DNA from: Shinella kummerowiae
Lineage (GTDB): Bacteria; Pseudomonadota; Alphaproteobacteria; Rhizobiales; Rhizobiaceae
Reading direction: 5' to 3'
Length of the DNA: 64,000 nucleotides
Assembly: GCF_009827055.1 (NCBI RefSeq)
Contig: NZ_WUMK01000001.1
Location: forward strand, 434,001-498,000
The position numbers were made by a program, and so were the translations under genes. Positions within the stretch are counted from its first letter, which is position 1; every line of letters starts with the position of its first letter. The notes under the pieces are model-generated. The model was given only the letters and a program-made list of their open reading frames with translations, was not told where the DNA came from and made no database searches. Positions 29,012-52,547 of this stretch are shown piece after piece.

Positions 29012-29020
29012 GGATCTTTC

Positions 29021-30353: not shown

Positions 30354-30419
30354 GCAGGAGGCACCCGCCGCACGGTGGGTCAGCGTGCCTCGTGCGTGTT
30401 CGCCCAAGGGGATCATTGA

Positions 30420-30926
<507 letters not shown>

Positions 30927-30993
30927 ATCGACACCTCAACGACCGGACTCAATCCGACAGGATGAGATGGCAAACCGTTGAAAAGACTCAAGG

Positions 30994-31028
30994 GAGCCCG
31001 GCAGCAATGCCGGGCTCAATTCGTTTGT
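30994..31028 (+). terminator. Terminator after ribH2
   Basis: GAGCCCGGCA-GCAA-TGCCGGGCTC perfect stem followed by AATTCGTTTGT. The U-tract is weak, but the position about 70 bases after the stop fits. Confidence 0.6.
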
Positions 31029-31036
31029 CTGCAAGG

Positions 31037-31150
31037 CCCCCTCATCCGCCTGCCGGCACCTTCTCCCCGCTGGGGAGAAGGGGAAAACGAGACGTTGCAT
31101 CCATCCCTTCTCCCCCACGGGGAGAAGGTGCCGGCAGGCGGTTGAGGGGG
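31037..31150. repeat. RIME-like inverted repeat, copy 2
   Basis: Two 33-base arms (31037-31069 and 31118-31150) beginning CCCCCTCATCCGCCTGCCGG are inverted with one mismatch, and each carries the CTTCTCCCCG module. It lies between the convergent ribH2 and LuxR-type genes. Confidence 0.8.
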
Positions 31151-31191
31151 TACCCACCATCACTACCGCCCGGCCGGCTCGCCAAGCTTGG

Positions 31192-31989: not shown

Positions 31990-32186
31990 GGCGTTCCTGC
32001 TCCCCAAGTCCGCGCGCGCAAAACCTCTTCTGCTGCCGCACGGGTATACTCCTCCCATAGCCAATTTATGGATAAAATACCTCTCTCGGGGTATATACCA
32101 ACCCGCAGGCCGCTGACTAGCATTCGACCTGACGGTGGCCATAGCGGCAGAGATCGCTGAGAGACCAACAACCGCAGGGAACAGAC
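31990..32186. promoter_or_regulatory. Divergent control region with palindromic sites
   Basis: GGTATATACC (32090-32099) is a perfect palindrome, and a related GGGTATACTCC lies at 32042-32052, about 48 bases apart. Both are candidates for the LuxR-type regulator. No gene fits in this stretch. Confidence 0.4.
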
Positions 32187-33263: not shown

Positions 33264-33301
33264 GGGAAACAGGCCCGTCACAACAACAAGGGAACAGTGT
33301 G

Positions 33302-34465: not shown

Positions 34466-34489
34466 CGGGAAAGGCATCTCCGCAAATCG

Positions 34490-34575
34490 ATCTCCCCCAC
34501 AAGGGGGGAGATTGGTTGGAGCGCGCAGCACAGTTCCTTCTCCCTGCCTGCGGGGAGAAATGGCCAGCCGGCCGG
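34490..34575. repeat. RIME-like hairpin pair, copy 3 (short)
   Basis: ATCTCCCCC / GGGGGAGAT (34490-34512) and TTCTCCCTGCCTGCGGGGAGAA (34538-34559) are two hairpins matching modules of the other copies. They lie in the binding-protein to permease gap, where they may attenuate transcription. Confidence 0.6.
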
Positions 34576-34601
34576 ATGAATACGCAACAGGACCTCACGC
34601 A

Positions 34602-35468
34602 ATGCCCCTGACAATGACGACGAAGAGACGGCTGGTGACGACGGCGCTGCTGGCGCCGGCGTCCGTCTGGCTGTTCGTCTTCCTTGTCCTGCCCTTCATC
34701 GCCATGGTGGTCTTCTCCGTCGGCGAGCGCGGACCGGCGGGCGGCTATCAACCGGCGTTCACCCTCGCGCAATATGCCAACCTGCCGGCCCGTGCCGCCG
34801 CCTACTGGAACACGCTGATGCTGGCGCCGGTCGGCGCCTTTCTCTGCCTCATCGTCGCCTACCCGACCGCCTATTACCTCGCGGTCAAGGCGCCGCCGCG
34901 TTATCGCCTGCTGCTCGTCTCGCTGGTCGTCGTGCCGTTCTGGACGAGTCTGCTCGTACGCACCTATGCCTGGATGTACATTCTCGGCTCGCGCGGCATC
35001 CCGAACCTGCTCGATATGATCGGCATCGCGGATGTCCGCCTGCTCAACACATCGGGCGCCGTGCTGCTCGGCATCGTCTACGGCTACTTGCCGCTGATGA
35101 TCATGCCGATCTATGTCAGTCTCGAAAAGCTCGATCGACGCCTGCTCGAGGCTTCCGCCGATCTCGGTGCCAAACCCGTCTCGACCTTCTTTTCCGTCAC
35201 CCTGCCGCTGTCGCTGCCGGGTGTCATGACGGGCGTCGCACTCGTCACCATTCTACTGCTTGGCGAGTATCTGATCCCGCAGCTTCTGGGTGGCGGCAAG
35301 GTGTTCTTCATCGGCAATGCGCTGGTCGATCTCTTCCTGCAATCGCGCAACTGGCCGTTCGGCTCGGCGATTGCCGTGACACTCGTCGCCGTGGTCGTGG
35401 TGGTGTTGATGGTCGCCATGCGCATCGCCTGGCGCATTTCCGGCACACGACAGGTGGATCTCGTCTGA
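34602..35468 (+). CDS. ABC transporter permease (PotB-like)
   Basis: 288 aa from ATG 34602. Six hydrophobic helices, N-terminal ALLAPASVWLFVFLVLPFIAM, EAA loop LLEASADLGAKPVSTFFSVTLPLSLPG. It forms the importer channel with the next permease. The stop shares a base with the next start (TGATG), so the two are translationally coupled. Confidence 0.9.
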   Translation: MPLTMTTKRRLVTTALLAPASVWLFVFLVLPFIAMVVFSVGERGPAGGYQPAFTLAQYANLPARAAAYWNTLMLAPVGAFLCLIVAYPTAYYLAVKAPPRYRLLLVSLVVVPFWTSLLVRTYAWMYILGSRGIPNLLDMIGIADVRLLNTSGAVLLGIVYGYLPLMIMPIYVSLEKLDRRLLEASADLGAKPVSTFFSVTLPLSLPGVMTGVALVTILLLGEYLIPQLLGGGKVFFIGNALVDLFLQSRNWPFGSAIAVTLVAVVVVVLMVAMRIAWRISGTRQVDLV

Positions 35469-36292
35469 TGCGCGCGCTGATCACCTACGTCTATCTGTTC
35501 CTCTATGCGCCGATCGCACTCGTCGTGCTGTTCTCCTTCAATGCGGGGCGCAATGCGAGCGAGTTCACCGGCTTCTCCGTTGAGTGGTACGGCAAGGCGC
35601 TCGCCAATCCGTTCCTCATCACCGCGCTGCAGAACAGCCTGATCATCGCCGTCACCAGCGCCACGCTCGCCGCCGTCTTCGGAACCATGGCAGCGCTTGG
35701 CCTCGAACGGTTGGGCAGCCGCGCCCGCGCCGTCTTCGACGGCCTGCTCGCCGCGGCGATCGTCGTGCCGGGCGTCGTGATCGGCATTGCCACGCTCGTC
35801 GCCCTCGTCGCCGTCTTCGGCGTGATCAATCCCGCCATCGCCAGCCTGTGGCCGGGCGAAAGGCCGCCGCAGTTCGGCCTCGGCTATGGCTCGATCATCG
35901 CCGCGCACGGCCTCTTCACCATGGCGCTCGTCACGATGATCGTGAAGGCGCGCATCGCGACACTCGGGCGCGACATCGTCGAGGCATCGGCCGATCTCTA
36001 CGCCACGCCGCTCACCACCTTCCGCCAGATCGTGCTGCCGCAGATCCTGCCTTCGGTGCTTGCCGGCTTCCTGCTCGCCTTCACCTTCTCTTTCGACGAC
36101 TTCATCGTGGCCTTCTTCGTCGCGGGCTCGAAGACGACGCTGCCGATCTACGTCTTCGCCTCGATTCGTCGCGGCGTGACGCCGGAGGTCAATGCCATCG
36201 CCACCATGGTGCTGGTCGCGTCGCTGCTGTTGATCGTGATCGCCCGCCTGCTGATGCGGGAAAAAACCAGAAAAACGACTGCCGGGGAGTGA
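35468..36292 (+). CDS. ABC transporter permease (PotC-like)
   Basis: 274 aa. Six hydrophobic helices starting TYVYLFLYAPIALVVLFSF, with EAA loop EASADLYATPLTTFRQIVLPQILPS and FTFSFDDFIVAFFVAG, typical of polyamine-type PotC/PotI. Second membrane subunit of the importer. Confidence 0.9.
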   Translation: MRALITYVYLFLYAPIALVVLFSFNAGRNASEFTGFSVEWYGKALANPFLITALQNSLIIAVTSATLAAVFGTMAALGLERLGSRARAVFDGLLAAAIVVPGVVIGIATLVALVAVFGVINPAIASLWPGERPPQFGLGYGSIIAAHGLFTMALVTMIVKARIATLGRDIVEASADLYATPLTTFRQIVLPQILPSVLAGFLLAFTFSFDDFIVAFFVAGSKTTLPIYVFASIRRGVTPEVNAIATMVLVASLLLIVIARLLMREKTRKTTAGE

Positions 36293-36297
36293 GACCG

Positions 36298-37059
36298 ATG
36301 ATCCTGAAGAACCGTGTCGCCATCGTCACCGGAGCGGGCTCCGGCATCGGCCGGGCCGGCGCGCGCATCATGGCGCGCGAGGGTGCCACCGTCTGCGTCG
36401 CCGATCTCAACGAGACGCGCGCCGCCGAGACGGTCGATTTCATCCGCGCGGATGGCGGCAAGGCGGAGGCGGTCATCGTCGACGTCACGGACGACGTGGA
36501 ACTGAAGATGGCGATCGCCGGCGTGCTCTCCCGCCATGGCCGGGTCGATATCCTGCACAATCACGCCGGCGCCCAGGTTGCCGGCGATCTTGAAAGCGTG
36601 CCGCTCGACGGGCTGGATCTTTCATGGAACCTCAACGTGCGCGCTCACCTGATGGCCGCACGCCTCGTCATGCCGGCCATGAAGGCGCAGGGCAAGGGCG
36701 TGATCCTCAACACCGCCTCGTCCTCCGGCGTGCTCTACGACCGCGAGATGATCGCCTATACGACGACGAAACACGCCGTCATCGCCATGACGAAACAGAT
36801 GGCCGGCGACTATGCCGGGCACGGCATCCGCGTCAACGCGCTCTGCCCCGGCTGGGTCGACACGCCCTTCAACGCACCCTTCATCACCCAGATGGGCGGG
36901 CGCGAGGCGATCGAGGCCTATATCAAGGAGAAGGTGCCGATGGGGCGGTGGGCCGATGTGGAAGAGATCGCCGAACCGATCCTCTTCCTCGTCTCCGACC
37001 GGTCAAGCTACATGACCGGTCAGATCCTTGTCGTCGATGGCGGCGAGACGGTGACCTAG
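36298..37059 (+). CDS. SDR-family oxidoreductase
   Basis: 253 aa. Classical short-chain dehydrogenase: cofactor motif TGAGSGIGRAG (residues 11-21), NHAG in place of the usual NNAG, catalytic Ser in NTASSSG, YTTTK with the Tyr and Lys, and C-terminal YMTGQILVVDGG. It prefers NAD(H), judging by Asp in VADLNETRA. It starts 5 bases after the permease stop, so it is part of the importer operon and probably acts on the imported compound or a breakdown product. Confidence 0.88.
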   Translation: MILKNRVAIVTGAGSGIGRAGARIMAREGATVCVADLNETRAAETVDFIRADGGKAEAVIVDVTDDVELKMAIAGVLSRHGRVDILHNHAGAQVAGDLESVPLDGLDLSWNLNVRAHLMAARLVMPAMKAQGKGVILNTASSSGVLYDREMIAYTTTKHAVIAMTKQMAGDYAGHGIRVNALCPGWVDTPFNAPFITQMGGREAIEAYIKEKVPMGRWADVEEIAEPILFLVSDRSSYMTGQILVVDGGETVT

Positions 37060-39836: not shown

Positions 39837-40424
39837 TTAGGCCCGAAAGCTCTCACGATTCCTGACGGCTGCGGTCACGAAAGCGTGTCCGCGCGGCGAA
39901 AGCCGATAACCGACGGCCAGGCTTTCCGTCAGTCCCAACGCCTTGAGCTGGCGTATCTTTCGCTTGAGAGCGAGCTTTTCGATGCCGAGCCGTTCGGCCA
40001 TCTCTGCGGCCGTCCTGCCGTCCCGTTCTGCGATCATGGAAAGGGCGGCATTCGTCCATGCACCCGTCCGGTCGAGCCCCGCAAGCGCCTCCGTCAAGGC
40101 TGCGATGTCGCCGCCGTCGAGCGTATCGTTTTCACGCAGGTTTTCCCGCGGGTCCTTGCCAGCGACATGGAAGGCAATGCGGTAGAGTTCTCCGTCGGGC
40201 CGAAGATCGCGCGCTAGGTCTTCCCGCGAGGCATAACCTGCCGCCTGGACATCTCCAGCAGGAATGGCATCGGGGTCCACCTTTTCGATGCTGTCAATGG
40301 CAAGCACGCCCGCCGCAGTCAGCAGCGTGCCGCCCGCCCGCACCGTGGGCTTGGCCCAACGCCGAAAGGCGAGTGTCACCTCGCCTCTGCCGATCCTCTC
40401 AAGCACCTTCGCCTTGAACAGCAT
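39837..40424 (-). CDS. ASCH-domain / winged-helix protein, last gene of ergothioneine operon
   Basis: 195 aa. Residues 1 to about 105 look like an ASCH/PUA-type domain (MLFKAKVLERIGRGEVTLAFRR, GVLAIDSIEKVD, LYRIAFHVAG). Residues about 120-185 form a winged helix (AWTNAALSMIAERDGRTAAE, KRKIRQLKALGLTESL). It begins 8 bases after the urocanase-like stop and its ribosome binding site GAGGG overlaps that stop codon, so it is co-transcribed. ASCH domains bind RNA or modified nucleobases. A regulatory or substrate-sensing role is inferred; no activity is known for this architecture. Confidence 0.7.
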   Translation of the reverse strand: MLFKAKVLERIGRGEVTLAFRRWAKPTVRAGGTLLTAAGVLAIDSIEKVDPDAIPAGDVQAAGYASREDLARDLRPDGELYRIAFHVAGKDPRENLRENDTLDGGDIAALTEALAGLDRTGAWTNAALSMIAERDGRTAAEMAERLGIEKLALKRKIRQLKALGLTESLAVGYRLSPRGHAFVTAAVRNRESFRA

Positions 40425-40432
40425 TCCAACCC

Positions 40433-42100
40433 TCAGGTGTTGCCGATCCTGACATAGCCGATCTGCTTCTCCTCGATCTCGTCGAACGATTCGTCGTAGC
40501 CGGCATCCGCATAACGGATCACACCGAGCGAGGTGTCGTTGGTCAGCGCATGCGAAAGCCGCTCAGTCGCCGCTTCCGTCCCGTCGGCGACCAGCGTGAC
40601 GCCGCAGCTCGTCATATAGCCGGCATAGCCGCCGCCGCCGGAATGCACGACAACAAGATCGGCCATCGACGAGCACAGCAGCATGGCGTCAAGCAGCGGC
40701 CAGTCGGCGATGGCATCCGAGCCGTCCTTCATGCGCTCCGTCATGATGTTCGGATGCGCCATTGCGCCGGCATCGAGATGGTCGCGCGAAAAGGCGATCG
40801 GCCCCTTGATCTCGCCCGATGCCACGAGCTTGTTGACGGCCAGTGCGAGTTCCGTACGCTCGCCGTGGCCGAGCCAGGCGATGCGCGCCGGCAGCCCCTC
40901 GAAGGGCACGTTCTCGCGGGCAAGGCGAATCCAGTTGGTGACGATCTTGTTGTCCGGGAACATGTCCATGACGAGGTCGTCGATGCGCGCGATATCGCTC
41001 TCCTCGCCGGACAGCGCCATCCAGCGGAACGGGCCGATGGCCCGCGCAAAGAGCGGGCGAAGATAGGCTTCGGTAAAGATCGGAATGTCGAAGGCGTTCG
41101 CGACGCCGCCTTCCCGCGCCTGCGTGCGGATGAGGTTGCCGTTGTCGAAGACCTCCGATCCGCGTTCCTGGAACTCCAGCATGGCGGAGACATGCTCGAC
41201 GATCGAGGCCCGGCTCGCCGCCATCAGCTGCCCCTGCCCGTCGTCGCGCAAGCCTTTCACCTGGTCGAGGTTCATGCCCTTCGGCACGTAACCGTAGACG
41301 AGGTCGTGCGCCGAAGTCTGGTCGGTGACGATGTCAGGCACGATGCCGCGCCGGGCGATCTCCGGGTAGATTTCCGCCGCGTTGCCGACGAGGCCGATCG
41401 AGGTCGCGCGTTTCGCCTTCACCGCCTCATCGATCATCGCCAGCGCCGTATCGAGATCCGACGCCACATGCTCCAGATAGCCAACCGCCTTACGGGCCGC
41501 TGCGCGCGCCGGATCGATATCGACGCAGAGGATCGCCGCACCCGCCATGCGGCCGGCGAGCGGTTGCGCCCCGCCCATTCCGCCGAGCCCGGCGGTTAGG
41601 ATGAATCGCCCGGCGAGACTGCCGTCGAACCGCTTTTCGGCGATGCGCATGAAGATTTCATAGGTGCCCTGGATGACGCCCTGGCTGCCGATATATTGCC
41701 AGGCACCGGCCGTCAGCCCGCCCCAGCAGATCAGCCCCTTGCGCTGGAGTTCATAGAACACCTCCGCCTTCGCCCATTGCCCGACAATGTTGCAGTTCGC
41801 CATGATGACGAGCGGCGCCTTGGCATGGGTCTTCAAGAGCCCGACCGGCTTGCCGGACTGGATGACCAGTGTCTGGTCCTCGTCCATGTCCGTCAGCGCC
41901 TTGACGATCGCCCGATGCGCCGCCCAGTTGCGCGCCGCCTTGCCAAGCGCGGCATAAACGATGAGATTGTCCGGATCCTCGCCGACCGACAGCACGTTTT
42001 CGAGCAGCCGCAGCAAGGCCTCCTGCCGCCAGCCCTTGGCGCGCAGCACGTCGCCGCCGGGGATCGGATAGTTCGGATGGCGCGGATTGGGCTTCGGCAT
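40433..42100 (-). CDS. Urocanase-family protein, probable thiourocanate hydratase
   Basis: 555 aa from ATG 42100 (GAGGGA upstream). Full-length urocanase fold with NAD+-binding TAGLGGMGGAQPLAG (about 169-183), WQYIGSQGVIQGTYE and VANAFDIPIFTEAYLRPLF. The urocanase signature normally reads FxGLPxRICW; here it is FEGLPARIAWLGHGER, so the active-site Cys (Cys410 of Pseudomonas putida urocanase) is Ala408. The usual VFDYGNNIR is VFDNGNLIR. Thiourocanate hydratases of ergothioneine catabolism are urocanase homologues with altered active sites. Together with the DUF917, hydantoinase and carbamoylase genes this is the likely function; true HutU is less likely. Confidence 0.8.
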   Translation of the reverse strand: MPKPNPRHPNYPIPGGDVLRAKGWRQEALLRLLENVLSVGEDPDNLIVYAALGKAARNWAAHRAIVKALTDMDEDQTLVIQSGKPVGLLKTHAKAPLVIMANCNIVGQWAKAEVFYELQRKGLICWGGLTAGAWQYIGSQGVIQGTYEIFMRIAEKRFDGSLAGRFILTAGLGGMGGAQPLAGRMAGAAILCVDIDPARAAARKAVGYLEHVASDLDTALAMIDEAVKAKRATSIGLVGNAAEIYPEIARRGIVPDIVTDQTSAHDLVYGYVPKGMNLDQVKGLRDDGQGQLMAASRASIVEHVSAMLEFQERGSEVFDNGNLIRTQAREGGVANAFDIPIFTEAYLRPLFARAIGPFRWMALSGEESDIARIDDLVMDMFPDNKIVTNWIRLARENVPFEGLPARIAWLGHGERTELALAVNKLVASGEIKGPIAFSRDHLDAGAMAHPNIMTERMKDGSDAIADWPLLDAMLLCSSMADLVVVHSGGGGYAGYMTSCGVTLVADGTEAATERLSHALTNDTSLGVIRYADAGYDESFDEIEEKQIGYVRIGNT

Positions 42101-42128
42101 GGTGGTCCCTCTTGCGTGGAATATTGCG

Positions 42129-42458
42129 TTACTTCGGCGGCAGCGTGTCAACGAAGGCAACCGCCTCGGAAATCAGGCGCCGGCGCAGCACCGCGTCGGT
42201 GCAGGCTTCAGGCGAGGCTCGAACCCAGCCTTCCATCACCCGATCGCCCATGATCATCTGCGCGATGCCTGCCGTCTCCAGAGCCCAGGCATCGTTGCCC
42301 TTGCCAAGGCGGACCAGCATCCCCTCCTTGCGCGCGCCGCAAAGCAGCTTGCCGTCGAGAAGCCAGGCGAGCCCACCGAACATCGTTTTTTCGGAAAGCC
42401 CCGCACGAAACCCGAGATCGGCCCGCACGACATCTTCCAGATCCCTGTCCCGTGCCAT
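42129..42458 (-). CDS. TfoX/Sxy N-terminal domain protein inside ergothioneine operon
   Basis: 109 aa. A single TfoX-N domain: KTMFGGLAWLLDGKLLCGAR, MLVRLGKGN, and a C-terminal helix RRRLISEAVAFVD. It lacks the TfoX C-terminal helical domain. It sits between the DUF917 gene (15-base gap) and the urocanase-like gene (28-base gap), so it must be co-transcribed with them. Stand-alone TfoX-N proteins have no established function. Its placement suggests a role tied to the pathway, such as binding an intermediate or regulation (inference). Confidence 0.8.
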   Translation of the reverse strand: MARDRDLEDVVRADLGFRAGLSEKTMFGGLAWLLDGKLLCGARKEGMLVRLGKGNDAWALETAGIAQMIMGDRVMEGWVRASPEACTDAVLRRRLISEAVAFVDTLPPK

Positions 42459-42473
42459 CGCCCGTCACTCCGG

Positions 42474-43565
42474 TTATTTGGCCAATACATAACTCACGAG
42501 ATCGATGCCCATCGCCTTCTCGACCGAAGGATAGACGGTCGGGTCGAGCACGCTGGAGGCCAGCGGAATGATGGTCTTCGGCACATGCAGCACGAAAACC
42601 CGCATGCCGACTTCAAGCTGGCCGACGCTGAGCGGCTCGCCGTCCGGCGAAAGCGTGGTGATGACATCCGGGAAGGTGGCAAGCCGTTTTCCTTCAGCCG
42701 ATTCGACCGCCATATACTCGTTCATCACATGCAGGACCGCCGCCTTGTCGCCCGTGCCGAGCGTCACGGTGCCGATATCGAAGGCCTCCTTGGTGTAGAC
42801 CACCGATTTGTCGGTGATCGTGCCTTCGGAGAGGATCGAACCGCCCGTCGTTTTGACCATCGCATCGATGATCGCCGAACCGCCCTTGCCTTCCGCCGCA
42901 ATGATCGCCTCGCCGAGCGTCAGCGCCAGCGAAATGCCGCCTAGCGCCGCATTTTTGCGAACGTAGGAGGCACGCAGCGGGTTGCGGCAGGAGGCAATGA
43001 AGCCGCCGGACATGTCGGACGCCGTGCGCAGGATCGGCGAGACTTTCGCGGTCGCGCCACGAACGACAAGCTCGATATAGCGGTTTTCGTCGCGGTTTCC
43101 CCCGACGGCCGTCTGGATCATCTGCTCGGGCGAACCGGCCATGCCGATCGACCCCATATCGCCGGTCGGATGTGCACGCATGTCGCCCACCGCATCCAGC
43201 ACCTTCGTGCCAAGGATGGCCGAGGGCAGCCAGCCGTTCAGCGTCGAGGACTTGCCGTTCTGCCCGACCATCAGTGCGGCGACCTTCTCGCCGAGCGCCT
43301 CCTGCAACAGCTCGACAGCCTTCACATAATCGACACCGCGCATTTCCCACGGCGTGGTCGAGGCCGGGGCGCCGATGGCGGCGGCCGTCGCCACCCAGTC
43401 GTCGTCCGAAAGCTCATCGATGGAAACCAGCTCGGGCTTGCCGATCGACACCGCCGCATAACCCAGCATGCGGCCATGATCTGCCCAGCCGCCACCACCT
43501 GCCGCATAGACCGAGCCGCCCTTGACCGCCGCTTCGACGTCTTTTTCCTTTAGAATCCGGCCCAT
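42474..43565 (-). CDS. DUF917 protein, probable thiohydantoin desulfurase
   Basis: 363 aa, full-length DUF917 (S-methyl-thiohydantoin desulfurase domain). N-terminal AVKGGSVYAAGGGGWADHGR, a central ALMVGQNGKSSTLNGW, and HPTGDMGSIGMAGSPEQM. In ergothioneine breakdown this enzyme type removes sulfur from the thiohydantoin formed after thiourocanate hydration, giving hydantoin-5-propionate. Its start overlaps the carbamoylase stop (TAATG). Presence between a urocanase homologue and hydantoin-cleaving enzymes is the strongest context clue for the pathway. Confidence 0.85.
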   Translation of the reverse strand: MGRILKEKDVEAAVKGGSVYAAGGGGWADHGRMLGYAAVSIGKPELVSIDELSDDDWVATAAAIGAPASTTPWEMRGVDYVKAVELLQEALGEKVAALMVGQNGKSSTLNGWLPSAILGTKVLDAVGDMRAHPTGDMGSIGMAGSPEQMIQTAVGGNRDENRYIELVVRGATAKVSPILRTASDMSGGFIASCRNPLRASYVRKNAALGGISLALTLGEAIIAAEGKGGSAIIDAMVKTTGGSILSEGTITDKSVVYTKEAFDIGTVTLGTGDKAAVLHVMNEYMAVESAEGKRLATFPDVITTLSPDGEPLSVGQLEVGMRVFVLHVPKTIIPLASSVLDPTVYPSVEKAMGIDLVSYVLAK

Positions 43566-44845
43566 TAGACGTCCTCCTGAATCACTTTCTGAAGTTTTTC
43601 GTCGAGTTGAATCACTGCATTAAGAAGCACCGCCGCGCCGAGCGCGATATCGTCCGTCTCGGCGAATTCTTCCGGTGCATGGCTGCGCCCGCCAAGGCAG
43701 GGCACGAAGATCATCGCCGAGCGCGTCACCCGCGCCATCCAGGCAGTGTCGTGCCCGGCACCGGAGGCCATGCGTCGATGGCTCGCCCCCACCGTCTCGC
43801 AGGCCGCATCCAGCACGTCGAGCAACAAGGGATCGCCGGGTGTCGGCATGTTATCGGAGATGCGGCGCGGCGCCTCGATGGCCGTGCCCGTCTCGCGGGC
43901 AAGCTGTTCGACCAGCAGGTCTACCGACCCGGCAAAGAGGTCCATCGCCGTGCGATCCTCCGCCCGCGCATCGATCAGCAGGCGCGCGCGGGACGGCACG
44001 ACATTGGCGGCGTTCGGCTCGATGGAGAACTCGCCGACCGTCGCCGTGAAATGGCTTGGCCCGTCGGACAGCGATTTCGCCAGCGCCTCAATGCCCGTCA
44101 CCAGCCGCGCAGCCGCGGCAAGCGCATCGGCGCGACTGCCCATCGGCGTCGTGCCGGCATGATCGGCCCGGCCTTCGACGATGATCTCGATGCGTGTGAT
44201 GCCGGCAATCGCCGTCACCACGCCGATATCGCGTTTTTCCGTTTCCAGCACCGGCCCCTGCTCGATGTGCAGTTCGAGGAAGGCTGCAATATCCCTACGC
44301 GCCTCGGCCTGGATGCGGGCCGGATCGCCACCGGCGTCGCGGATGCCCTGCTCCAGCGTCAGCCCGCCGCTCTGGCGCGTCAGCCAGTCTTCCGGCAGCA
44401 CACCGGCCATGCCGCGGCTGCCGATGCAGGAGACCCCGAAGATGGAGACTTCCTCGGCGAGGAAATCGACGACCTCCAGATCATGGTCGAGTTCGATGCC
44501 CTGGTCCGCCAGCGCGCGGGCCACTTCCAGCGCCACCGCCACGCCGGCAATGCCGTCATAGCGCCCGCCATCCGGCACCGTATCGGAATGCGAGCCCAGC
44601 ATGATCGTGCCAAGACCGGGCTTTTTTCCCGGCCGGCGCGCCGTGAGATTGCCCGCGGCATCGATGCGCGTCTCAAGCCCCGCGGCCTGAAACTTGTCGA
44701 GAAGAAAATCCCGCCCCGCCGGGAACAGAGCGGTAAAGGCACGCCGTGTATAGGGCCGGCCGGGCTCGGTGAGCCGGGCGAGCCCGTCGATCACGTCCGC
44801 GATGCGCGCGGAATCGACCGGCAGATTGGTTTTTGGCGCCGCCAT
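43565..44845 (-). CDS. M20-family N-carbamoyl-amino acid hydrolase (N-carbamoyl-L-glutamate type)
   Basis: 426 aa from ATG 44845, which overlaps the preceding stop (ATGA). Zn-dependent amidohydrolase of the allantoate amidohydrolase/beta-ureidopropionase group: LGSHSDTVPDGGRYDG (metal His and Asp), VDFLAEEVSIFG (Glu), LHIEQGPVLE (His), the dimerisation-domain motif RADHAGTTPM and GGRSHAPEEFAETDD (last metal His). It should release ammonia and CO2 from an N-carbamoyl amino acid; in this operon the expected substrate is N-carbamoyl-L-glutamate, giving glutamate. Confidence 0.88.
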   Translation of the reverse strand: MAAPKTNLPVDSARIADVIDGLARLTEPGRPYTRRAFTALFPAGRDFLLDKFQAAGLETRIDAAGNLTARRPGKKPGLGTIMLGSHSDTVPDGGRYDGIAGVAVALEVARALADQGIELDHDLEVVDFLAEEVSIFGVSCIGSRGMAGVLPEDWLTRQSGGLTLEQGIRDAGGDPARIQAEARRDIAAFLELHIEQGPVLETEKRDIGVVTAIAGITRIEIIVEGRADHAGTTPMGSRADALAAAARLVTGIEALAKSLSDGPSHFTATVGEFSIEPNAANVVPSRARLLIDARAEDRTAMDLFAGSVDLLVEQLARETGTAIEAPRRISDNMPTPGDPLLLDVLDAACETVGASHRRMASGAGHDTAWMARVTRSAMIFVPCLGGRSHAPEEFAETDDIALGAAVLLNAVIQLDEKLQKVIQEDV

Positions 44846-46224
44846 CAGCGGGCACCGGACGAAACGAGAGTCGGCAGCGGCCGCACGAAGGCGCCGGTGC
44901 CGGGCTCGGCCAGCACCCTGGTACCGTCGAAGGCAAGCCGGCCGCGCAGATAAGTCGCGGAAATGCGCCATGGCAGCTTGATGCCGTTATAGGGCGACCA
45001 GCCGACGACGTTGTGGCCGCTCGCGGCCGCGTCATAGGTGTAGGGCTCGGGCGTCAGCACGGTGATATCGGCATCCTTGCCGGCTTCGAGTGCGCCCTTC
45101 ACATGATCCAGCCGGAAATGCCGCGCCGGGTTCAGCGTCATCAACTCGGCCGCCCGCGTCAGCGGAATGCCGCGTTCCAGCGCACCCTTGACGAAGAGCG
45201 GCACCATGACCTCCAGCCCCGGCACGCCGGAGGCATTGGCCAGCATGTCCGGATTGGTCTTGCGGTCTTCCGACCAGCTCACGTGGTCGGTGGAAACCAG
45301 CGTGACATTGCCCTCGGCGACATGCCGCCAGAGTTTTTCGACTTCGGCGCGCGGGCGGATCGGCGGATTGATCTTCGCCTTGCCGCCAAGCCGGCGCACG
45401 TCATTTTCCTCGTCGAGCGTCAGGTAGTGAATGCAGCACTCGATGGTGGCGCGAAAACCCTGGGCGCGATAGGCGGCGGCGATCTCGTAACCACGGCCAA
45501 GCGAGCAATGCACCACATGCGCCGGGCAGCCTGTTTCGGCACCGGTCTCGTAAATCTGGTTGGAGGCAAGCAGCTCCGTCAGCGGCGGGCGCGACATTCC
45601 GTGTGCGCGGTAGTCGGTGATGCCGGCGGCCTTCACCTTGGCGATCGCCGCGCGCACCGCCTCGTCATCCTCGTTGTGCACACCGGCGGTCAGGCCCGTC
45701 GGCGCAATGGCGCGGAAGCAGTCTTCCAGCAAGGCCGCAGGAATGCGCGGGAAACGCTTCGGGTCGGTCCCGAAGGTGGAAAACTTGAAGGCGGCGACGC
45801 CCGCCTCGACCATCTCGCCGATGCGGGCCGGTCCCTCTTCCGGGTCGACCGTGCCGTAAAGCGCGAAATCGACGCGCGCCTGCGGCGCGGCATGGTCGAC
45901 CTTGATCTTCACCGCGTCCGCCGAGCAGACGAGATTGCCCTCGTCATAGGGCATGTCGACGATGGTCGTGACGCCACCGGCTGCCGCCGAACGCGTCGAC
46001 CAGATGAAATCTTCCTGGTTCTTCTGCGACAGCGAATGGACCTGGGCATCGATGGCGCCGGGCAGGATCAACGCGCCGGAAAGGTCGTGCCGCTCCTTCG
46101 CCGCCGGCATCGCGCCCTGCCCGACATGCACCACCTTGCCGTCCCGCACGGCGACATGGCCGCCCTCGACGATACGATCGGCCAGAACCACGGTGCCTTT
46201 CAGAACGAGATCAAAGTCGGCCAT
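44845..46224 (-). CDS. Amidohydrolase, probable hydantoin-5-propionate hydrolase
   Basis: 459 aa from ATG 46224 (CGGAGA upstream). Dihydroorotase/hydantoinase/allantoinase superfamily with a TIM barrel. Metal sites: the usual HxH is QVH (Gln61, His63) in GAIDAQVHS; VAAFKFSTFG carries the lysine to be carbamylated; TAGVHNEDDE and HVVHCSLG give further histidines; STDHVSWSEDR the barrel Asp. It should open the hydantoin ring of hydantoin-5-propionate to N-carbamoylglutamate. The Gln at the first metal-ligand position is unusual for the superfamily but may be normal for this branch. Confidence 0.85.
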   Translation of the reverse strand: MADFDLVLKGTVVLADRIVEGGHVAVRDGKVVHVGQGAMPAAKERHDLSGALILPGAIDAQVHSLSQKNQEDFIWSTRSAAAGGVTTIVDMPYDEGNLVCSADAVKIKVDHAAPQARVDFALYGTVDPEEGPARIGEMVEAGVAAFKFSTFGTDPKRFPRIPAALLEDCFRAIAPTGLTAGVHNEDDEAVRAAIAKVKAAGITDYRAHGMSRPPLTELLASNQIYETGAETGCPAHVVHCSLGRGYEIAAAYRAQGFRATIECCIHYLTLDEENDVRRLGGKAKINPPIRPRAEVEKLWRHVAEGNVTLVSTDHVSWSEDRKTNPDMLANASGVPGLEVMVPLFVKGALERGIPLTRAAELMTLNPARHFRLDHVKGALEAGKDADITVLTPEPYTYDAAASGHNVVGWSPYNGIKLPWRISATYLRGRLAFDGTRVLAEPGTGAFVRPLPTLVSSGAR

Positions 46225-46237
46225 TCGCGTATCTCCG

Positions 46238-47776
46238 TTACGGCGTGAGGGCGAAGAAAGCGTCGAACCCCGCCATGGGCGCGGCCTCAACGAAGGCGGC
46301 CAGTGCCTCCGGGCTCGCAAGATCGCGGTCGAGTGCCTCGATTTCGGCAGAAAGCGGCCGGTCCTTGCGATAGAACGGGCTGACCGCCCGTGTGCGCTGA
46401 TAGACGATGGCGGCAACGCCTTCGGGATTGTCGCCGGCAAGGTCGATGGCCTGCGCCGACAGCATGGCTTCGAGCGCCGCCAACTGATGGAGATCCCGCA
46501 CCTGGCTCTCCATGCGCTCGACGATCAGCGGTAGGAAGGTCGCCTCTTCCTCAAGGCCGCCGGCAACCACGATCGACTGCGCCGAGATCGGCACGGCGAG
46601 CGACTGGATGCGCATGTAAAGTTCGACGGCGAGTTTCAGCAGGGGACCAAAACCTGTCGCTGCCTCTCCGGGCGCAACAAGGTTGACCGGAAGGTTGCGA
46701 CGCACGCCGTTCGAAAGCAGCACGCAGCGATTGAGCACATTGCGCGCCAGATGCGCAAAACCCGTCTGCGCAGCCTCGACATAGAGCGTCGTCGACAGCG
46801 GCAAAGAGCCACCGGAGGCCATGACATGATTGTCGATGACGACCGGATTGTCGTCCGACTGCGCCGTCGCCTCGACGATGCGCTCGGCGGCGTTCATCAG
46901 CGTATCGAGGCAGGCGCCGAAGACCTGCGCGGTCATCCGCAGGCTGAGCGGATCGTGGATTGCCGACGGTTTCGGCCAATGGCCGGAGGAGGCCTGCGCC
47001 TCGAACCAGCAGCCGGCCAGCGCCTCGCCATGCGCCGAGAGCCGCGCGGCCACCCGCCACGGGTCCGCCGAGGCGCCAAGCGCCAATGAGGAAAGAAGCC
47101 CGGTCACCATGAGATTGCGGATCGCCTTGGCCGCCTCGCGCACCACATTGGCGGCGGCGGCATGCGAGATGGCATTGACGCTGAGGGCGGCCAGCGCATC
47201 CCGCGGCTGCATGCGATACGGCTTGAGCCCGGCGCGCTTCAGCGCGTCCGCGGCCGGCAGCCGCACGCCGCCAAACCAGGCCTCACCCTCACCGGTCATG
47301 ACCGAGGCGATCTGCCCCATCAGGCCAATATCGGCACAGCCCATCGAGCCATGGCGGCGCACGACGGGCACGACATCCTTTTCGAGAAGACCAAGGAAAG
47401 CACCGATCAGTTCCGGGCTGCAGCCGGAATAGCCGCCGAGCGCCGTGTTGACGCGGATCGCCATCGCCTTGCGCACGATCGGCAGGGCGAAGGGTTCGCC
47501 GGTGCCGAAATGGTGTGCCCTGACGAGGCTGTTGTTGAATTCGACAAGGTCGTCGGCTGTCCAGAGCTTGTCCTTCATCGAGCCGACGCCGGTGTTCGCG
47601 CCGTAGATCGGAAGCCCCGTGGCGAGGCGATCCGTGATGACGAGGCGCGATGCGCCGATGCGCCCCATGCCGATCTCGCAGGCGACCGGGCGGCGCGTGG
47701 CGGCGCCGATCGCCTCCAGCGTTGCGAAGTCGAGCGGTTGACCGGTCAGATAGAGCGTGTCGGCGGAAGCAAGCAT
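46238..47776 (-). CDS. Histidine ammonia-lyase homologue without MIO, probable ergothionase
   Basis: 512 aa from ATG 47776; ATG 47854 is in frame but would add 26 unlike residues. Aromatic amino acid lyase fold: LPIYGANTGVGSMKD, NNSLVRAHHFGTGE, ATAQSDDNPVVID. In HutH the motif GSVGASGDLAPL supplies Ala-Ser-Gly for the MIO cofactor; here it reads GSMGCADIGLMG, so the triad is Cys147-Ala148-Asp149 and MIO cannot form. Ergothionases are lyases of this fold that eliminate trimethylamine from ergothioneine by acid/base catalysis without MIO. First gene of the operon, divergent from the LysR-type gene. Confidence 0.82.
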   Translation of the reverse strand: MLASADTLYLTGQPLDFATLEAIGAATRRPVACEIGMGRIGASRLVITDRLATGLPIYGANTGVGSMKDKLWTADDLVEFNNSLVRAHHFGTGEPFALPIVRKAMAIRVNTALGGYSGCSPELIGAFLGLLEKDVVPVVRRHGSMGCADIGLMGQIASVMTGEGEAWFGGVRLPAADALKRAGLKPYRMQPRDALAALSVNAISHAAAANVVREAAKAIRNLMVTGLLSSLALGASADPWRVAARLSAHGEALAGCWFEAQASSGHWPKPSAIHDPLSLRMTAQVFGACLDTLMNAAERIVEATAQSDDNPVVIDNHVMASGGSLPLSTTLYVEAAQTGFAHLARNVLNRCVLLSNGVRRNLPVNLVAPGEAATGFGPLLKLAVELYMRIQSLAVPISAQSIVVAGGLEEEATFLPLIVERMESQVRDLHQLAALEAMLSAQAIDLAGDNPEGVAAIVYQRTRAVSPFYRKDRPLSAEIEALDRDLASPEALAAFVEAAPMAGFDAFFALTP

Positions 47777-47896: not shown

Positions 47897-49060
47897 GTGG
47901 ATCTATCCACGCTTTGCCTTGTGCACAGCATTCTCGAAGAACGCGGCATCCGCAGGGCAGCGGCCGTTGCGGGGCGCCCCGCCTCCAGCGCCAGCGCCGC
48001 CCTCCGCCGCGTCGAGGCCGTTCTCTCCGTGCCGCTCGTGCGGCGGGACGGCCAGACGCTTGTGCCCACCCTCGAGGCTGAAGCCCGCCTGCCCCGCTTT
48101 GCCGACATCGCCCGCGCCGCCGACGCCCTGGCCACCCTCGGCAAAGGTGGACAGGCACGCGCCACCGTTTCGCTCGCCGCCCTCGCCCGCTTCGCGGCGG
48201 TGGCACGAGCCGGCAGCATCAACGCCGCCGCCAAAAGCCTCGGCCTTGGCCAACCGCAACTCACCCGCCAACTCAGCCATCTGGAGGCGGCGATCGGTTG
48301 CAAGATGCTCGACCGTTCGGCGACCGGCATAAGCTGCACGCCCGCCGGCCTCGAGGCCCTGGCTCTCGCCGAACAGATCGGTTCCGCCTGGGAACTGCTC
48401 TTCGCCGCCTCCGCCGAACGCTTCCGCCGCAGCGCCGCCACCTGGCGGCTTGGCACGATCATTCCCTTCGGTCATGAAAGCGAGATCGCCGCCATGCTGG
48501 CGGGCCTCGCGGTCGAGTGGCGCGCTGCGCGGCCCCGCCAGCCGCTCTTCCTCTCTTCCACCACGGCAGACGAACTTGTCTCCGGACTGAAGAACCGCCG
48601 CTTCGACCTGATCCTGCTCGACACGGACCGCTACCCCGCCGAATTCGAAGGCAAATTGATCGGCCGTTCGCAACTCGCACTTGCCGGTCCGCGCACGATG
48701 GAGGCGCCCAAACCGCAAGATTTCCCGGCACTTCTGCGCCGTTACCCGATCGCCGTGCCAAGTCCACGCAGCGGCCTGCGGCAGATGACCGACCGGTTTC
48801 TTGAGGCAACGCTTTCCGCCGCCGAACGCGCGCGCCTGACGCTGGTCGAGGTCGATTCGATCCCGGTCATCATCAATCTCGTGCTGGACCACGGCCATCT
48901 CTCGGTTCTGCCGGAGCATTCCGTCGCCAACATCAACCCGCCGCCAACGCTGCTGCCGCTGGATGCCGCCTACCAGCAATCGCTGAGCCTCGTCTGGCCG
49001 CGCGATGCACTCTCAAGGCAGGCGGCCGAAACGATGTTCGCGCTCCTTCCGAAACCTTAG
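47897..49060 (+). CDS. LysR-type regulator with tandem HTH domains
   Basis: 387 aa from GTG 47897 behind GGAAGGAG, longer than a usual LysR protein (about 300). Residues 2-62 form a first LysR-like HTH (IRRAAAVAGRPASSASAALR, RVEAVLSVPLVRR). Residues 92-152 form a second, more canonical one (INAAAKSLGLGQPQLTRQL, LEAAIGCKMLDRS). An effector-binding domain of about 230 residues follows. Divergent from the ergothionase gene, so it probably senses ergothioneine or an intermediate. Its stop overlaps the stop of the convergent GlxA-type gene (TTAG at 49057-49060). Confidence 0.85.
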   Translation: MDLSTLCLVHSILEERGIRRAAAVAGRPASSASAALRRVEAVLSVPLVRRDGQTLVPTLEAEARLPRFADIARAADALATLGKGGQARATVSLAALARFAAVARAGSINAAAKSLGLGQPQLTRQLSHLEAAIGCKMLDRSATGISCTPAGLEALALAEQIGSAWELLFAASAERFRRSAATWRLGTIIPFGHESEIAAMLAGLAVEWRAARPRQPLFLSSTTADELVSGLKNRRFDLILLDTDRYPAEFEGKLIGRSQLALAGPRTMEAPKPQDFPALLRRYPIAVPSPRSGLRQMTDRFLEATLSAAERARLTLVEVDSIPVIINLVLDHGHLSVLPEHSVANINPPPTLLPLDAAYQQSLSLVWPRDALSRQAAETMFALLPKP

Positions 49061-50052
49061 CCCTTCGCCCCGGCGCGGAGGCGTCGACGGGTTTCGGTCG
49101 GGCTCTCGTGGTAATGCGCACGGTAGCTGCGCGAAAAGGCGGAGGAAGAATTGAAGCCCGTGAGCGCTGCGATATCGGCAAACTCGGCCTTGGTCTCGAT
49201 GACCTTGCGCCGCGCCGCATTGAGGCGCAGCGCCAGATAGTGCTGGTGGGGCGCAACGCCCATCGATTCCTGGAACAGGTCCTGGAGGTGGCGGGCGCTG
49301 ATACCGACGCGTTTGGCCAGCCGCGTCAGCGTCAACGGCGCGTCCACCGTCTCCTCCATCACCCGCACCGCCTGGCTGACGCGCTGGTCGGCGATGCGCA
49401 TGTTGCCGAGCGCCGGCACCTGCAGCAGTCCGCCGGTCCGCTCGTGTTCGTAGATGAACAGCCGCGACACTTCGAGCGCCAGCGAATAGCCCTGCCGGCG
49501 GCGGATGATCTCCAGCATCAGGTCGAGCGTCGGCAAGGAACCGCCGGTGGTGATGCGCTTGCCGTCGATGACGTAGCGCTCGCGCATCACCGCGATCTGC
49601 GGATAGCGGGAGGCGAATTCCTCCATGTCCTCCCAGTGGATCGTCACGGAATGGCCGTTCAAGAGACTGGCCTCGGCAAGCAGCCAGCTTCCCGATTCGA
49701 TGCCGGCCATCATCGTGCGGTGACGCGCCGTCTGCGAAAGCTGGCGCCGCAACAGAGGCGTCGCACTCATCTGCCATTGATAGCTCGAAAGCACGAACAG
49801 CGGCTCTTTCTCCCGCTCAGGCCGGAACAGGCCGTCGACCGGCACCGGAATGCGGCTCCGCGTTTCGACCGGCTGGCCGTCGGGGGAAAAAATCCGCCAG
49901 CGGTAAAGCGCCTGGCCGGAAATGCGGTTGGCAGCGCGCAGGGGCTCGATGACCGAGGCGACGAGGATGAGGTTCGTCTCGGGCAGCACGAGGATATCGA
50001 TGTCGAGGGTATCGGAGGAGGGATCGAGCATGGCGGAAGCATGCGTGTTCAT
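49057..50052 (-). CDS. GlxA/CdhR-type AraC-family regulator
   Basis: 331 aa from ATG 50052; an upstream TTG at 50067 is also in frame. The N-terminal DJ-1/PfpI-like domain (residues about 12-195; DILVLPETNLILVASVIEPLR, GIESGSWLLAEASLLNGHSV) is joined to a C-terminal AraC HTH (VDAPLTLTRLAKRVGISARH, FNSSSAFSRSYRAHYHESPT). This is the architecture of CdhR, the activator of carnitine dehydrogenase genes, and of GbdR. It is divergent from the BKACE gene and almost certainly controls the carnitine operon. Confidence 0.88.
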   Translation of the reverse strand: MNTHASAMLDPSSDTLDIDILVLPETNLILVASVIEPLRAANRISGQALYRWRIFSPDGQPVETRSRIPVPVDGLFRPEREKEPLFVLSSYQWQMSATPLLRRQLSQTARHRTMMAGIESGSWLLAEASLLNGHSVTIHWEDMEEFASRYPQIAVMRERYVIDGKRITTGGSLPTLDLMLEIIRRRQGYSLALEVSRLFIYEHERTGGLLQVPALGNMRIADQRVSQAVRVMEETVDAPLTLTRLAKRVGISARHLQDLFQESMGVAPHQHYLALRLNAARRKVIETKAEFADIAALTGFNSSSAFSRSYRAHYHESPTETRRRLRAGAKG

Positions 50053-50145
50053 CTCTCGAATTGTCAAGAATGGATCCGAAAAGTGAAAGCATTGCGCCTT
50101 CTCTTGGCTCGTAATGGACCCAATGAGAATACTGGGAGAGATCGA
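50053..50145. promoter_or_regulatory. Divergent carnitine-operon promoter region
   Basis: 93 bases between the GlxA-type regulator and the BKACE gene, with TTGGCTCGTAATGGACCCAA near 50104. GGGAGAG serves as ribosome binding site for ATG 50146. Site assignments are tentative. Confidence 0.35.
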
Positions 50146-51057
50146 ATGCCCTTAGCCATGAACCGTGATGTCTTCATCACCTGCGCCGTCACCGGCTCCG
50201 GCGACACCGCCGGCAAATCGCCCCACGTGCCGCGCTCGCCCAAGCAGATCGCTGAATCGGCCATCGATGCCGCCAAGGCCGGCGCCGCTGTCGTGCACTG
50301 CCACGTCCGCGATCCGGAAACAGGCGCGCCGAGCCGCCGCAACGACCTCTACCGCGAAGTGACCGAGCGCATCCGCGATGCCGAGGTGGACGTGGTGCTC
50401 AACCTCACCGCCGGCATGGGCGGCGACATGATCTTCGGTGGCACGGAACAGCCGCTGCCGTTGAACCCCAACGGCACCGACATGGTCGGCGCCACCGAAC
50501 GCGTGTCCCACGTCGCCGAATGCCTGCCGGAAATCTGTACGCTCGATTGCGGCACGATGAATTTTTCGCTCGGCGACTACGTGATGACCAACACGCCGTC
50601 CATGCTGCGCGCAATGGGCAGGATGATGACCGATCTCGGTGTCCGCCCGGAAATCGAGGCCTTCGACACCGGCCACCTCTGGTTCGCCAAGCAGCTCGTC
50701 GAGGAAGGCGTGATCGAGGATCCGGTGCTCATCCAGCTCTGCATGGGCATTCCGTGGGGTGCACCTGATGACCTCAACACCTTCATGGCGATGGTCAACA
50801 ACGTGCCCGCCAACTGGACCTTCTCGGCCTTCTCGATCGGCCGCAACGCCATGGCCTATCCGGCCGCTGCGGTGCTTGCCGGCGGTAACGTTCGCGTCGG
50901 CCTGGAAGACAACCTCTATGTCGGCAAGGGCCAGCTCGCCACCAATGCGCAGCTCGTCGAAAAAGCCGTCAACATCGTCGAAAGCATGGGTGCCCGCATC
51001 ATCGGCCCGGCCGAAGTGCGCGAAAAGCTGAAACTCCAGAAGCGGGCACCGAAATGA
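50146..51057 (+). CDS. BKACE-family dehydrocarnitine cleavage enzyme
   Basis: 303 aa from ATG 50146. Beta-keto acid cleavage enzyme (formerly DUF849): FITCAVTGSG, VVHCHVRDPETGAPSRR with the zinc-binding His-x-His, LNLTAGMGGDMIFG, EAFDTGHLWFAKQLV and VGLEDNLYVGKG. In the carnitine pathway it takes 3-dehydrocarnitine and acetyl-CoA to betainyl-CoA and acetoacetate. The stop overlaps the start of the carnitine dehydrogenase gene (ATGA), fixing the pathway role. Confidence 0.9.
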   Translation: MPLAMNRDVFITCAVTGSGDTAGKSPHVPRSPKQIAESAIDAAKAGAAVVHCHVRDPETGAPSRRNDLYREVTERIRDAEVDVVLNLTAGMGGDMIFGGTEQPLPLNPNGTDMVGATERVSHVAECLPEICTLDCGTMNFSLGDYVMTNTPSMLRAMGRMMTDLGVRPEIEAFDTGHLWFAKQLVEEGVIEDPVLIQLCMGIPWGAPDDLNTFMAMVNNVPANWTFSAFSIGRNAMAYPAAAVLAGGNVRVGLEDNLYVGKGQLATNAQLVEKAVNIVESMGARIIGPAEVREKLKLQKRAPK

Positions 51058-52547
51058 GCCAGATCAACAAGGCAGCCTGCGTCGGCGGCGGTGTCATCGG
51101 CGGCGCCTGGGTGGCGCGCTTTGCGCTCGCCGGCATCGACGTCAACATCTTCGATCCGCACCCGGAAGCCGAGCGCATCATCGGCGAAGTGATGGCCAAT
51201 GCCGAGCGCGCCTATGGCATGCTCACCATGGCGCCGCTGCCACCAAAGGGCAAAGTCACCTTCTGCAAGAGCTTGGAAGACGCCGTCAAAGACGCTGATT
51301 GGATTCAGGAAAGCGTGCCCGAACGCCTGGAACTGAAGCGCGGCGTGCTGACCCAGATCGATGCGGCGGCAAAGCCCGATGCGCTGATCGGCTCGTCCAC
51401 GTCCGGCCTGATGCCGACGGACCTGCAGCGCGACATGAAGCACCCCGAGCGCCTGTTCGTGGCGCATCCCTACAATCCCGTCTACCTGCTGCCGCTCGCC
51501 GAACTCGTCGGCGGCGAGAAGACCAGCAAGGCGACGCTCGAAGCGGCCAAGGCCAAGCTCGCCCCCATCGGCATGAAGGGCGTGATCATCAACAAGGAGA
51601 TCGAGGCCTTCGTTGGTGACCGCCTGCTCGAAGCCGTCTGGCGCGAAGGCCTCTGGCTGATCAAGGACGATATCTGCGACACCGAGACACTCGACGACGT
51701 GATCCGCTATTCGTTCGGCATGCGCTGGGCGCAGATGGGCATGTTCGAGACCTACCGCATCGCCGGTGGCGAAGCCGGCATGCGCCACTTCCTCGCCCAG
51801 TTCGGCCCCTGCCTCTCCTGGCCGTGGACGAAGCTGACCGACGTCGTCGATCTCAACGACGAACTGGTCAACAAGATCGCCGACCAGTCCGACGCCCAGT
51901 CCGGTGCCCGCGGCATCCGCGAGCTGGAACGCATCCGCGACCAGAACCTCGTCGGCATCATGCATGCGCTGAAGGCCGGCGACGACGGCAAGGGCTGGGG
52001 CTCGGGCAAGCTGCTCGCCGAATTCGAGGAACATCTCTGGGCCAAGGCCGGCAAGGCGAAGGTCGAGGTTTCCGCAAACGAGCCGCTGCGCCTCGTCGAC
52101 ACCAAGGTCAACGCCGCCTGGGTCGATTATAACGGCCACATGACCGAGCACCGCTACCTCCAGCTCTTCGGCGACACCTCCGATGCGCTGCTGCGTCTCA
52201 TCGGCGTCGATTTCGCCTATGTCGAGGCCGGGCACAGCTACTACACGGTGGAAACCCACATCCGCCACATCGGCGAAGCCAAGCTCGGCCAGGCACTCTA
52301 CACGACGCTCCAGCTTCTGGCCTCCGACAGCAAGCGGCTGCACTACTTCACCCGCATCCACGATGCGGCGACCGGCGATGTCATCGCGACGGCCGAGCAG
52401 ATGATGCTCCATGTCGACAGCAAGGCCGGCAAGAGCGTGGATGCGCCCGCGGACGTGCTGGCGAAGATCAAGCCGATCGCGGAAGCCCACGCCAAGCTGG
52501 CAACGCCCGAGGGTGCCGGCCGCAGCGTCGGGCAGAAGCACAAGTAA
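51054..52547 (+). CDS. lcdH: L-carnitine dehydrogenase / betainyl-CoA thioesterase fusion
   Basis: 497 aa. The N-terminal 3-hydroxyacyl-CoA-dehydrogenase-type domain has GGGVIGGAWVARFALAG (residues 9-25) for NAD, QESVPERLELKR, AHPYNPVYLLPLAELVGG and the C-terminal dimer helices with FGMRWAQMGMFETYR. From about residue 340 a hotdog thioesterase is fused: VDYNGHMTEHRYLQLFGD, VETHIRHIGEAKLGQAL. This two-domain form is the rhizobial L-carnitine dehydrogenase with betainyl-CoA thioesterase. It oxidises carnitine to 3-dehydrocarnitine and hydrolyses betainyl-CoA to glycine betaine. Confidence 0.92.
   Translation: MSQINKAACVGGGVIGGAWVARFALAGIDVNIFDPHPEAERIIGEVMANAERAYGMLTMAPLPPKGKVTFCKSLEDAVKDADWIQESVPERLELKRGVLTQIDAAAKPDALIGSSTSGLMPTDLQRDMKHPERLFVAHPYNPVYLLPLAELVGGEKTSKATLEAAKAKLAPIGMKGVIINKEIEAFVGDRLLEAVWREGLWLIKDDICDTETLDDVIRYSFGMRWAQMGMFETYRIAGGEAGMRHFLAQFGPCLSWPWTKLTDVVDLNDELVNKIADQSDAQSGARGIRELERIRDQNLVGIMHALKAGDDGKGWGSGKLLAEFEEHLWAKAGKAKVEVSANEPLRLVDTKVNAAWVDYNGHMTEHRYLQLFGDTSDALLRLIGVDFAYVEAGHSYYTVETHIRHIGEAKLGQALYTTLQLLASDSKRLHYFTRIHDAATGDVIATAEQMMLHVDSKAGKSVDAPADVLAKIKPIAEAHAKLATPEGAGRSVGQKHK

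Follow-up and report, generated by a model that had tools for sequence, protein, structure and literature searches.

A five-step pathway of bacterial ergothioneine catabolism was reportedly reconstituted by Beliaeva, Leisinger and Seebeck in 2021 (ACS Chem Biol 16:397) and is said to use an ergothionase, a thiourocanate hydratase, a thiohydantoin desulfurase (DUF917), a hydantoin-propionate hydrolase and an N-carbamoylglutamate hydrolase. Compared with this pathway, an operon of Shinella kummerowiae appears to unite all five enzyme types, four of which were recognized by NCBIfam cut-offs and the lyase by its best Protein Data Bank (PDB) match, motif and tree position; it differs by a divergent lyase branch and by TfoX_N and LysR companions. 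The operon lies at positions 39837-47776 of the window, the whole analysed stretch of 64,000 nucleotides, which corresponds to positions 434001-498000 of contig 1 of the 6.3 Mb host genome (GCF_009827055.1). With a probability of about 0.88, the operon is predicted to encode ergothioneine catabolism. According to PMC13405746, gut bacteria (Feng 2025, Zhou 2025) likewise rely on a thiourocanate-making ergothionase, described there as free of the 4-methylideneimidazole-5-one (MIO) group; in contrast to the hydratase and thiohydantoin desulfurase predicted for Shinella, they use a thiourocanate desulfhydrase releasing H2S. In that paper (2026), a BLAST search with one Burkholderia ergothionase found the enzyme restricted to a few genera, together with a warning of divergent homologues. 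The pathway is thus already known and the Shinella operon adds a case; new here are a divergent branch of lyases for which no fitting annotation model was found, the carnitine genes linked to the operon, a LysR regulator that carries two DNA-binding domains, and a TfoX_N gene that recurs across loci. A literature search on Shinella with ergothioneine, and on phrases for ergothioneine use, found nothing in the collection of papers searched.

The operon and its proposed pathway

Seven genes, all on the minus strand and each with an ATG start, form the operon. In the order listed below, they are separated by 13 bases, a 1-base overlap, a second 1-base overlap, 15, 28 and 8 bases, as computed from open reading frame coordinates, in agreement with the tight arrangement described in an earlier note that had been made from the letters alone.

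46238..47776, minus strand: putative ergothionase (ergothioneine trimethylamine-lyase), a MIO-less Lyase_aromatic protein of 512 amino acids; best PDB match 6s7j, motif, tree
44845..46224, minus strand: ErtD-type hydantoin-5-propionate amidohydrolase; NF058538, 801.9 bits, cut-off 600
43565..44845, minus strand: ErtE-type N-carbamyl-L-glutamate amidohydrolase (M20); NF058540, 593.7 bits, cut-off 520
42474..43565, minus strand: thiohydantoin desulfurase (S-Me-THD/DUF917 family); NF058529, 601.8 bits, cut-off 440
42129..42458, minus strand: small TfoX_N protein, accessory; PF04993, 36.5 bits, cut-off 30.1
40433..42100, minus strand: thiourocanate hydratase, HutU-like; NF058530, 1048.9 bits, cut-off 930
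39837..40424, minus strand: 195-amino-acid protein, its C-terminal half a probable winged helix, a Shinella companion outside the core; all Pfam and NCBIfam matches below cut-off

The operon proteins were scanned with Pfam and NCBIfam (release 20.0, June 2026) profiles at curated cut-offs. Six of the gene families named in the earlier note were recovered by Pfam above cut-off, namely Lyase_aromatic, Amidohydro_1, Peptidase_M20, S-Me-THD (the former DUF917), TfoX_N and Urocanase. The note had expected routine annotation to call these genes hutH and hutU, which holds only in part: one annotated Rhizobium relative carries the names 'aromatic amino acid ammonia-lyase', 'amidohydrolase family protein', 'Zn-dependent hydrolase', 'DUF917 family protein' and 'urocanate hydratase', and in NCBIfam four of the five steps have a model of their own. 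The TfoX_N gene and the ASCH-like gene at 39837-40424 are not among the five pathway enzymes.

Based on gene content and on family membership at steps 2-5, from which we infer the actual substrate and all enzyme activities, the Shinella gene set would very probably break ergothioneine, an antioxidant of fungi, down to glutamate, trimethylamine and sulfide. In the proposed first step, the MIO-free lyase may eliminate trimethylamine from ergothioneine to form thiourocanate; the MIO electrophile of HutH would be unneeded because the leaving group in ergothioneine is already quaternised. The urocanase homologue could then add water to thiourocanate to give thiohydantoin propionate, in which the S-Me-THD/DUF917 enzyme may swap sulfur for oxygen with the formation of hydantoin-5-propionate and sulfide. 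Opening of the hydantoin ring by ErtD would yield N-carbamyl-glutamate, from which ErtE could free glutamate, CO2 and ammonia.

Placement of the lyase and the hydratase

The lyase, for which an alternative in-frame ATG lies at 47854, matches Pfam Lyase_aromatic with 270.5 bits. Against the PDB its best match is the Treponema denticola ergothionase 6s7j (183.4 bits; 6s7q likewise), followed by 7tqr (146.8 bits), deposited as 'probable histidine ammonia-lyase', and HutH 1gkj (117.9 bits). The Shinella and Treponema enzymes belong to the same superfamily, lack the MIO triad and share conserved Tyr, Lys-Asp, Lys and Glu positions. Relatives were collected by scanning genomes with a six-row lyase alignment, which gave 429 relatives; locus counts below cover the best 80. 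In a 66-row alignment, the MIO (ASG) triad is absent from all 15 rhizobial rows (13 from the genome scan, the window and an Ochrobactrum row) and present in 27 HutH-type rows; the window lyase reads GCA-D where MIO lyases have GASGD. Conversely, the Lys-Asp and Lys positions of 6s7j are kept in 15 of 15 rhizobial rows, including K68-D69 and K381 of the window lyase, and are absent from all 27 MIO rows. The two lysines of 6s7j presumably have a catalytic role.

The lyase tree was built from 56 of 67 rows (the 66 aligned rows and one new one), leaving out six MIO HutH, two Val-Asp and three GY rows, and it did not contain the Burkholderia ergothionase BAM63550. The 15 rhizobial rows and five rows of the 6s7j group occupy one side of a branch with support 98/91.7, and a single clade of the rhizobial rows with the 21 MIO rows of this tree was rejected (p-AU, approximately unbiased test, 0.00017). 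In the 66-row set, a forced grouping of the window lyase alone with all 27 MIO rows likewise failed the test (p-AU 4.75e-61).

The hydratase is 67.0% identical to PDB 7ned, which was deposited as a urocanate hydratase, and 49.8-52.3% identical to four HutU proteins. Both the window protein and 7ned (1022.2 bits) exceed the NF058530 cut-off, whereas HutU controls from the hut operons of Paracoccus and Priestia stay below it with 676.4 and 711.1 bits. A 19-row hydratase tree, which included 11 of 12 planned genome-scan rows (L045 was left out since its match overran the stop of the protein), split 15 thio-type rows, comprising the window, its operon relatives and 7ned, from the four HutU rows with support 100/100. 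The window hydratase stands on a separate sub-branch from 7ned.

These results bear on the idea that the operon is a second histidine-utilisation operon made of HutH and HutU paralogues. Homology to both superfamilies speaks for it: the lyase scores 213.2 bits with the hutH model TIGR01225, and the hydratase exceeds the cut-off of the hutU model. The lyase score is, however, far under the TIGR01225 cut-off of 539.15, against 730.0 bits for the true HutH of the same genome; the Shinella proteins differ from HutH and HutU in lacking the MIO triad and in falling into different clades, with no downstream hut genes. None of the seven operon proteins passes the NCBIfam models of HutI, HutG or HutF, so that the absence of HutI and HutG claimed in the earlier note is correct for the operon; HutF, HutI, HutH and HutU of the same genome score over cut-off in a hut locus on contig 38. 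Histidine utilisation was rejected by the clade tests and this separate hut locus, and is highly improbable. Both proteins lie outside the HutH and HutU clades in the trees, the placement on which the earlier note had staked its reading, and ergothioneine catabolism accords with all that could be computed.

Several points weigh against that assignment. No ergothionase model is among the NCBIfam matches of the lyase, and no specific family model matched it. Its identity to 6s7j is just 29%, and the rhizobial lyase branch is long, at 3.3 changes per column; the tree program warns that the placement of long branches can be wrong. Besides NF058530, the hydratase passes the hutU model TIGR01228 (689.6 bits, cut-off 375), and forcing the window hydratase alone to join the four HutU rows was just moderately rejected (p-AU 0.0236). 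A general 'Zn-dependent hydrolase' model, NF009531, outscores the ErtE model on the M20 protein (667.2 bits, cut-off 486), and NCBIfam names are annotation, not an activity test. No ergothioneine transporter was recognized beside the operon in Shinella; the OsmF-type binding protein of the genome (500.7 bits, cut-off 400) is unlinked to it. Because of the 29% identity and the long branch of its own, the specificity of the lyase is not transferable from 6s7j by homology alone, and for the same two reasons the rhizobial lyases are regarded, on sequence grounds, as a separate branch of ergothionase-like enzymes and no close copy of the Treponema enzyme.

The length of this branch also leaves some room for an ergothioneine relative as the substrate, such as S-methyl-ergothioneine, ergothioneine sulfonate, selenoneine or hercynine. 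PMC13405746 cites, for the rhizobial relative Agrobacterium radiobacter, a paper titled on a bacterial ergothioneine sulfonate pathway, and NCBIfam holds separate S-methyl models. The Shinella proteins pass the thio-type models, whereas the hydratase fails the S-methyl thiourocanate hydratase model NF058531 (739.1 bits, cut-off 880) and the desulfurase fails the S-methyl thiohydantoin desulfurase model NF058532 (286.8 bits, cut-off 450); S-methyl substrates were rejected on these cut-offs. ErtD does not reach its alternative model NF058539 (379.6 bits, cut-off 650). With hercynine, the conserved desulfurase would have no obvious task. Overall, a relative of ergothioneine is an improbable substrate of the operon, and ergothioneine itself is preferred.

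Conservation across relatives

The nearest ten named lyase relatives are all from Shinella. The genes for the lyase, ErtD, ErtE, the desulfurase and the hydratase follow one another in a constant order on one strand in 76 of the 80 loci, which excludes a chance grouping. Two of the four exceptions, L078 and L110, are cut by contig ends; L096 has no ErtD or ErtE match between lyase and desulfurase, and L106 has the lyase alone. A survey of 21 Shinella genomes showed lyase (at least 90% identity) and desulfurase together in 17 and neither of them in the other four; being related to each other, the 17 genomes are not independent.

Carnitine dehydrogenase and BKACE genes share the locus in 49 of the 80 cases, which would suit a lyase that releases trimethylamine from another betaine, for example a carnitine-related one, next to genes of a separate hydantoin route. 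Against such a division stand Rhizobium loci such as L097 and L108, where the five genes are together with no carnitine genes in the fetched flanks, and the joint presence and absence of lyase and desulfurase in Shinella. It is therefore given very little credence, and a common role of the five genes in ergothioneine catabolism is retained.

The desulfurase model is exceeded in six of 398 Pseudomonadota genomes, the genome of the window included and all of them from its order, and in one of 394 genomes from the order of G386. This one, G575 (2.3 Mb), encodes a desulfurase (615.7 bits, cut-off 440) and a hydratase (997.0 bits, cut-off 930) that are 67% and 68% identical to those of the window, respectively; their neighbours are a major facilitator superfamily transporter and a lyase that lacks MIO, belongs to the 6s7j group and has a signal peptide recognized by eye. 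Since G575 pairs these enzymes with a 6s7j-type lyase, the same thio-type enzyme pair is accompanied by two lyase branches.

The divergent lyase branch spans Rhizobiaceae, Martelella and an Ochrobactrum and is anchored in operons; soil and root bacteria may for this reason be an overlooked ergothioneine sink and a source of trimethylamine and sulfide. A motif-plus-context rule, consisting of the missing MIO triad, the Lys-Asp and Lys positions and an adjacent desulfurase gene, separates such lyases from HutH. The Martelella loci L094 and L096 have genes of a glycine-betaine-type ATP-binding cassette (ABC) system inside the operon, after the lyase gene and before the remaining ones; the binding protein of L094 passes the OsmF model (496.0 bits, cut-off 400) and that of L096 matches Pfam OpuAC (178.4 bits, cut-off 21.2). 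A gap of similar size, carrying no annotation, is present in L095 and L101.

Companion genes, genome context and other MIO-less lyases

On the other side of the lyase, the operon is flanked by a divergent regulator gene and a carnitine cluster.

47897..49060, plus strand: LysR-type regulator with two HTH_1 stretches (PF00126 twice, PF03466), candidate operon regulator
49057-50067, minus strand: GbdR-like AraC regulator, carnitine neighbour outside the pathway; below specific cut-offs
50146-51057, plus strand: BKACE-family enzyme, carnitine neighbour outside the pathway; below specific cut-offs
51054-52547, plus strand: carnitine 3-dehydrogenase, neighbour outside the pathway; NF005716, 906.3 bits, cut-off 592

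The LysR protein has 387 amino acids, and its assumed GTG start lies 120 bp from the lyase start. Its gene is divergent from and upstream of the lyase gene in 55 of the 80 loci, and in a comparison with 11 relatives its extra N-terminal part could be aligned in 10, the match in L101 being shorter. The operon is probably under the control of this regulator with its two DNA-binding domains.

Within the operon, the TfoX_N gene stands between the desulfurase and hydratase genes in 51 of the 80 loci. The gene at 39837-40424 occurs in five, all of them Shinella (five of ten Shinella loci, one with an in-frame stop), and was rejected as a core part of the pathway on this count. The C-terminal half of its product resembles a winged helix (HTH_20, 24.1 bits, below the cut-off of 27), which makes that part of the 'ASCH/winged-helix' label in the earlier note likely; the ASCH part, which would be the N-terminal half, is unconfirmed because no Pfam match to it was obtained at E<=5, with HMMER filters that drop most weak matches. 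A PDB profile search with this protein gave nothing under E 0.012, the best match lying in the winged-helix part. A PADLOC scan returned nothing for the TfoX_N protein and only weak helix-turn-helix-type matches for the 39837-40424 protein.

Elsewhere in the genome, contig 37 carries genes that the earlier note does not mention, for a trimethylamine monooxygenase (855.0 bits, cut-off 675), a type III glutamate-ammonia ligase (680.1 bits, cut-off 469.6), a DmmA-like protein, a haem-dependent N-demethylase and sarcosine-oxidase-type subunits over cut-off. Two stretches resembling trimethylamine N-oxide demethylase score 733.7 and 227.5 bits, below the full-length cut-off of 1100, one of them at the end of the fetched stretch. 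Because of the trimethylamine monooxygenase and the methylamine genes on contig 37, released trimethylamine is likely to be used by these unlinked genes. EgtD had no match in the genome; 14 of 14 control genomes were below the cut-off too, so that this search had no positive control.

Taken jointly, the rhizobial lyases may constitute a second ergothionase family with a specialisation of its own, supplying the same pair of hydratase and desulfurase that is served in G575 by a 6s7j-type lyase; together with LysR, the carnitine cluster and the trimethylamine genes, Shinella could use both trimethylamine and the ring, with TfoX_N as a dedicated accessory. This combination is tentative, and the odds are against its holding in every part.

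Two transport gene groups of the window were also noted. Downstream of the operon, positions 27309-37059 contain genes for the permeases and TOBE_2-type ATPases (29021, 32187) of ABC transporters and a short-chain dehydrogenase/reductase gene, and an oligopeptide/nickel-type ABC system lies in the carnitine cluster at 57007-62153, with the three scanned subunits below specific NCBIfam cut-offs.

Further lyases lacking the MIO triad were encountered in the alignment and the scans. A third lyase of the Shinella genome (G000:C22:342779-344251; L164:6711-8246) lacks the whole ASG triad and belongs to the 11 of 66 rows with a GY--- motif; it directly follows a glycine-betaine/ProU-type ABC system. 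In some genomes, among the first 30 loci of a further scan, a lyase of this GY type stands beside a second lyase match. Next to a betaine-type transporter, an enzyme of this MIO-less kind may have a betaine, for example hercynine, as its substrate. A lyase of the 6s7j group on a plasmid of Paracoccus saliphilus (L043:7764-9452) also lacks MIO; it has an apparent signal peptide recognized by eye, adjoins hutI, hutH, hutG and hutU and is possibly a hercynine or ergothioneine trimethylamine-lyase feeding histidine catabolism. A gene annotated hutH on pSymA of S. meliloti (L158:8929-10569) encodes a protein that lacks the MIO triad, falls on the ergothionase branch and has Ala in place of the second lysine; an ABC system and a gene annotated as dimethylsulfoniopropionate lyase are nearby. 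Eight more MIO-less lyases (L044, L127-L131, L133 and L134) show Val-Asp and Lys at the Lys-Asp and Lys positions and form a separate group.

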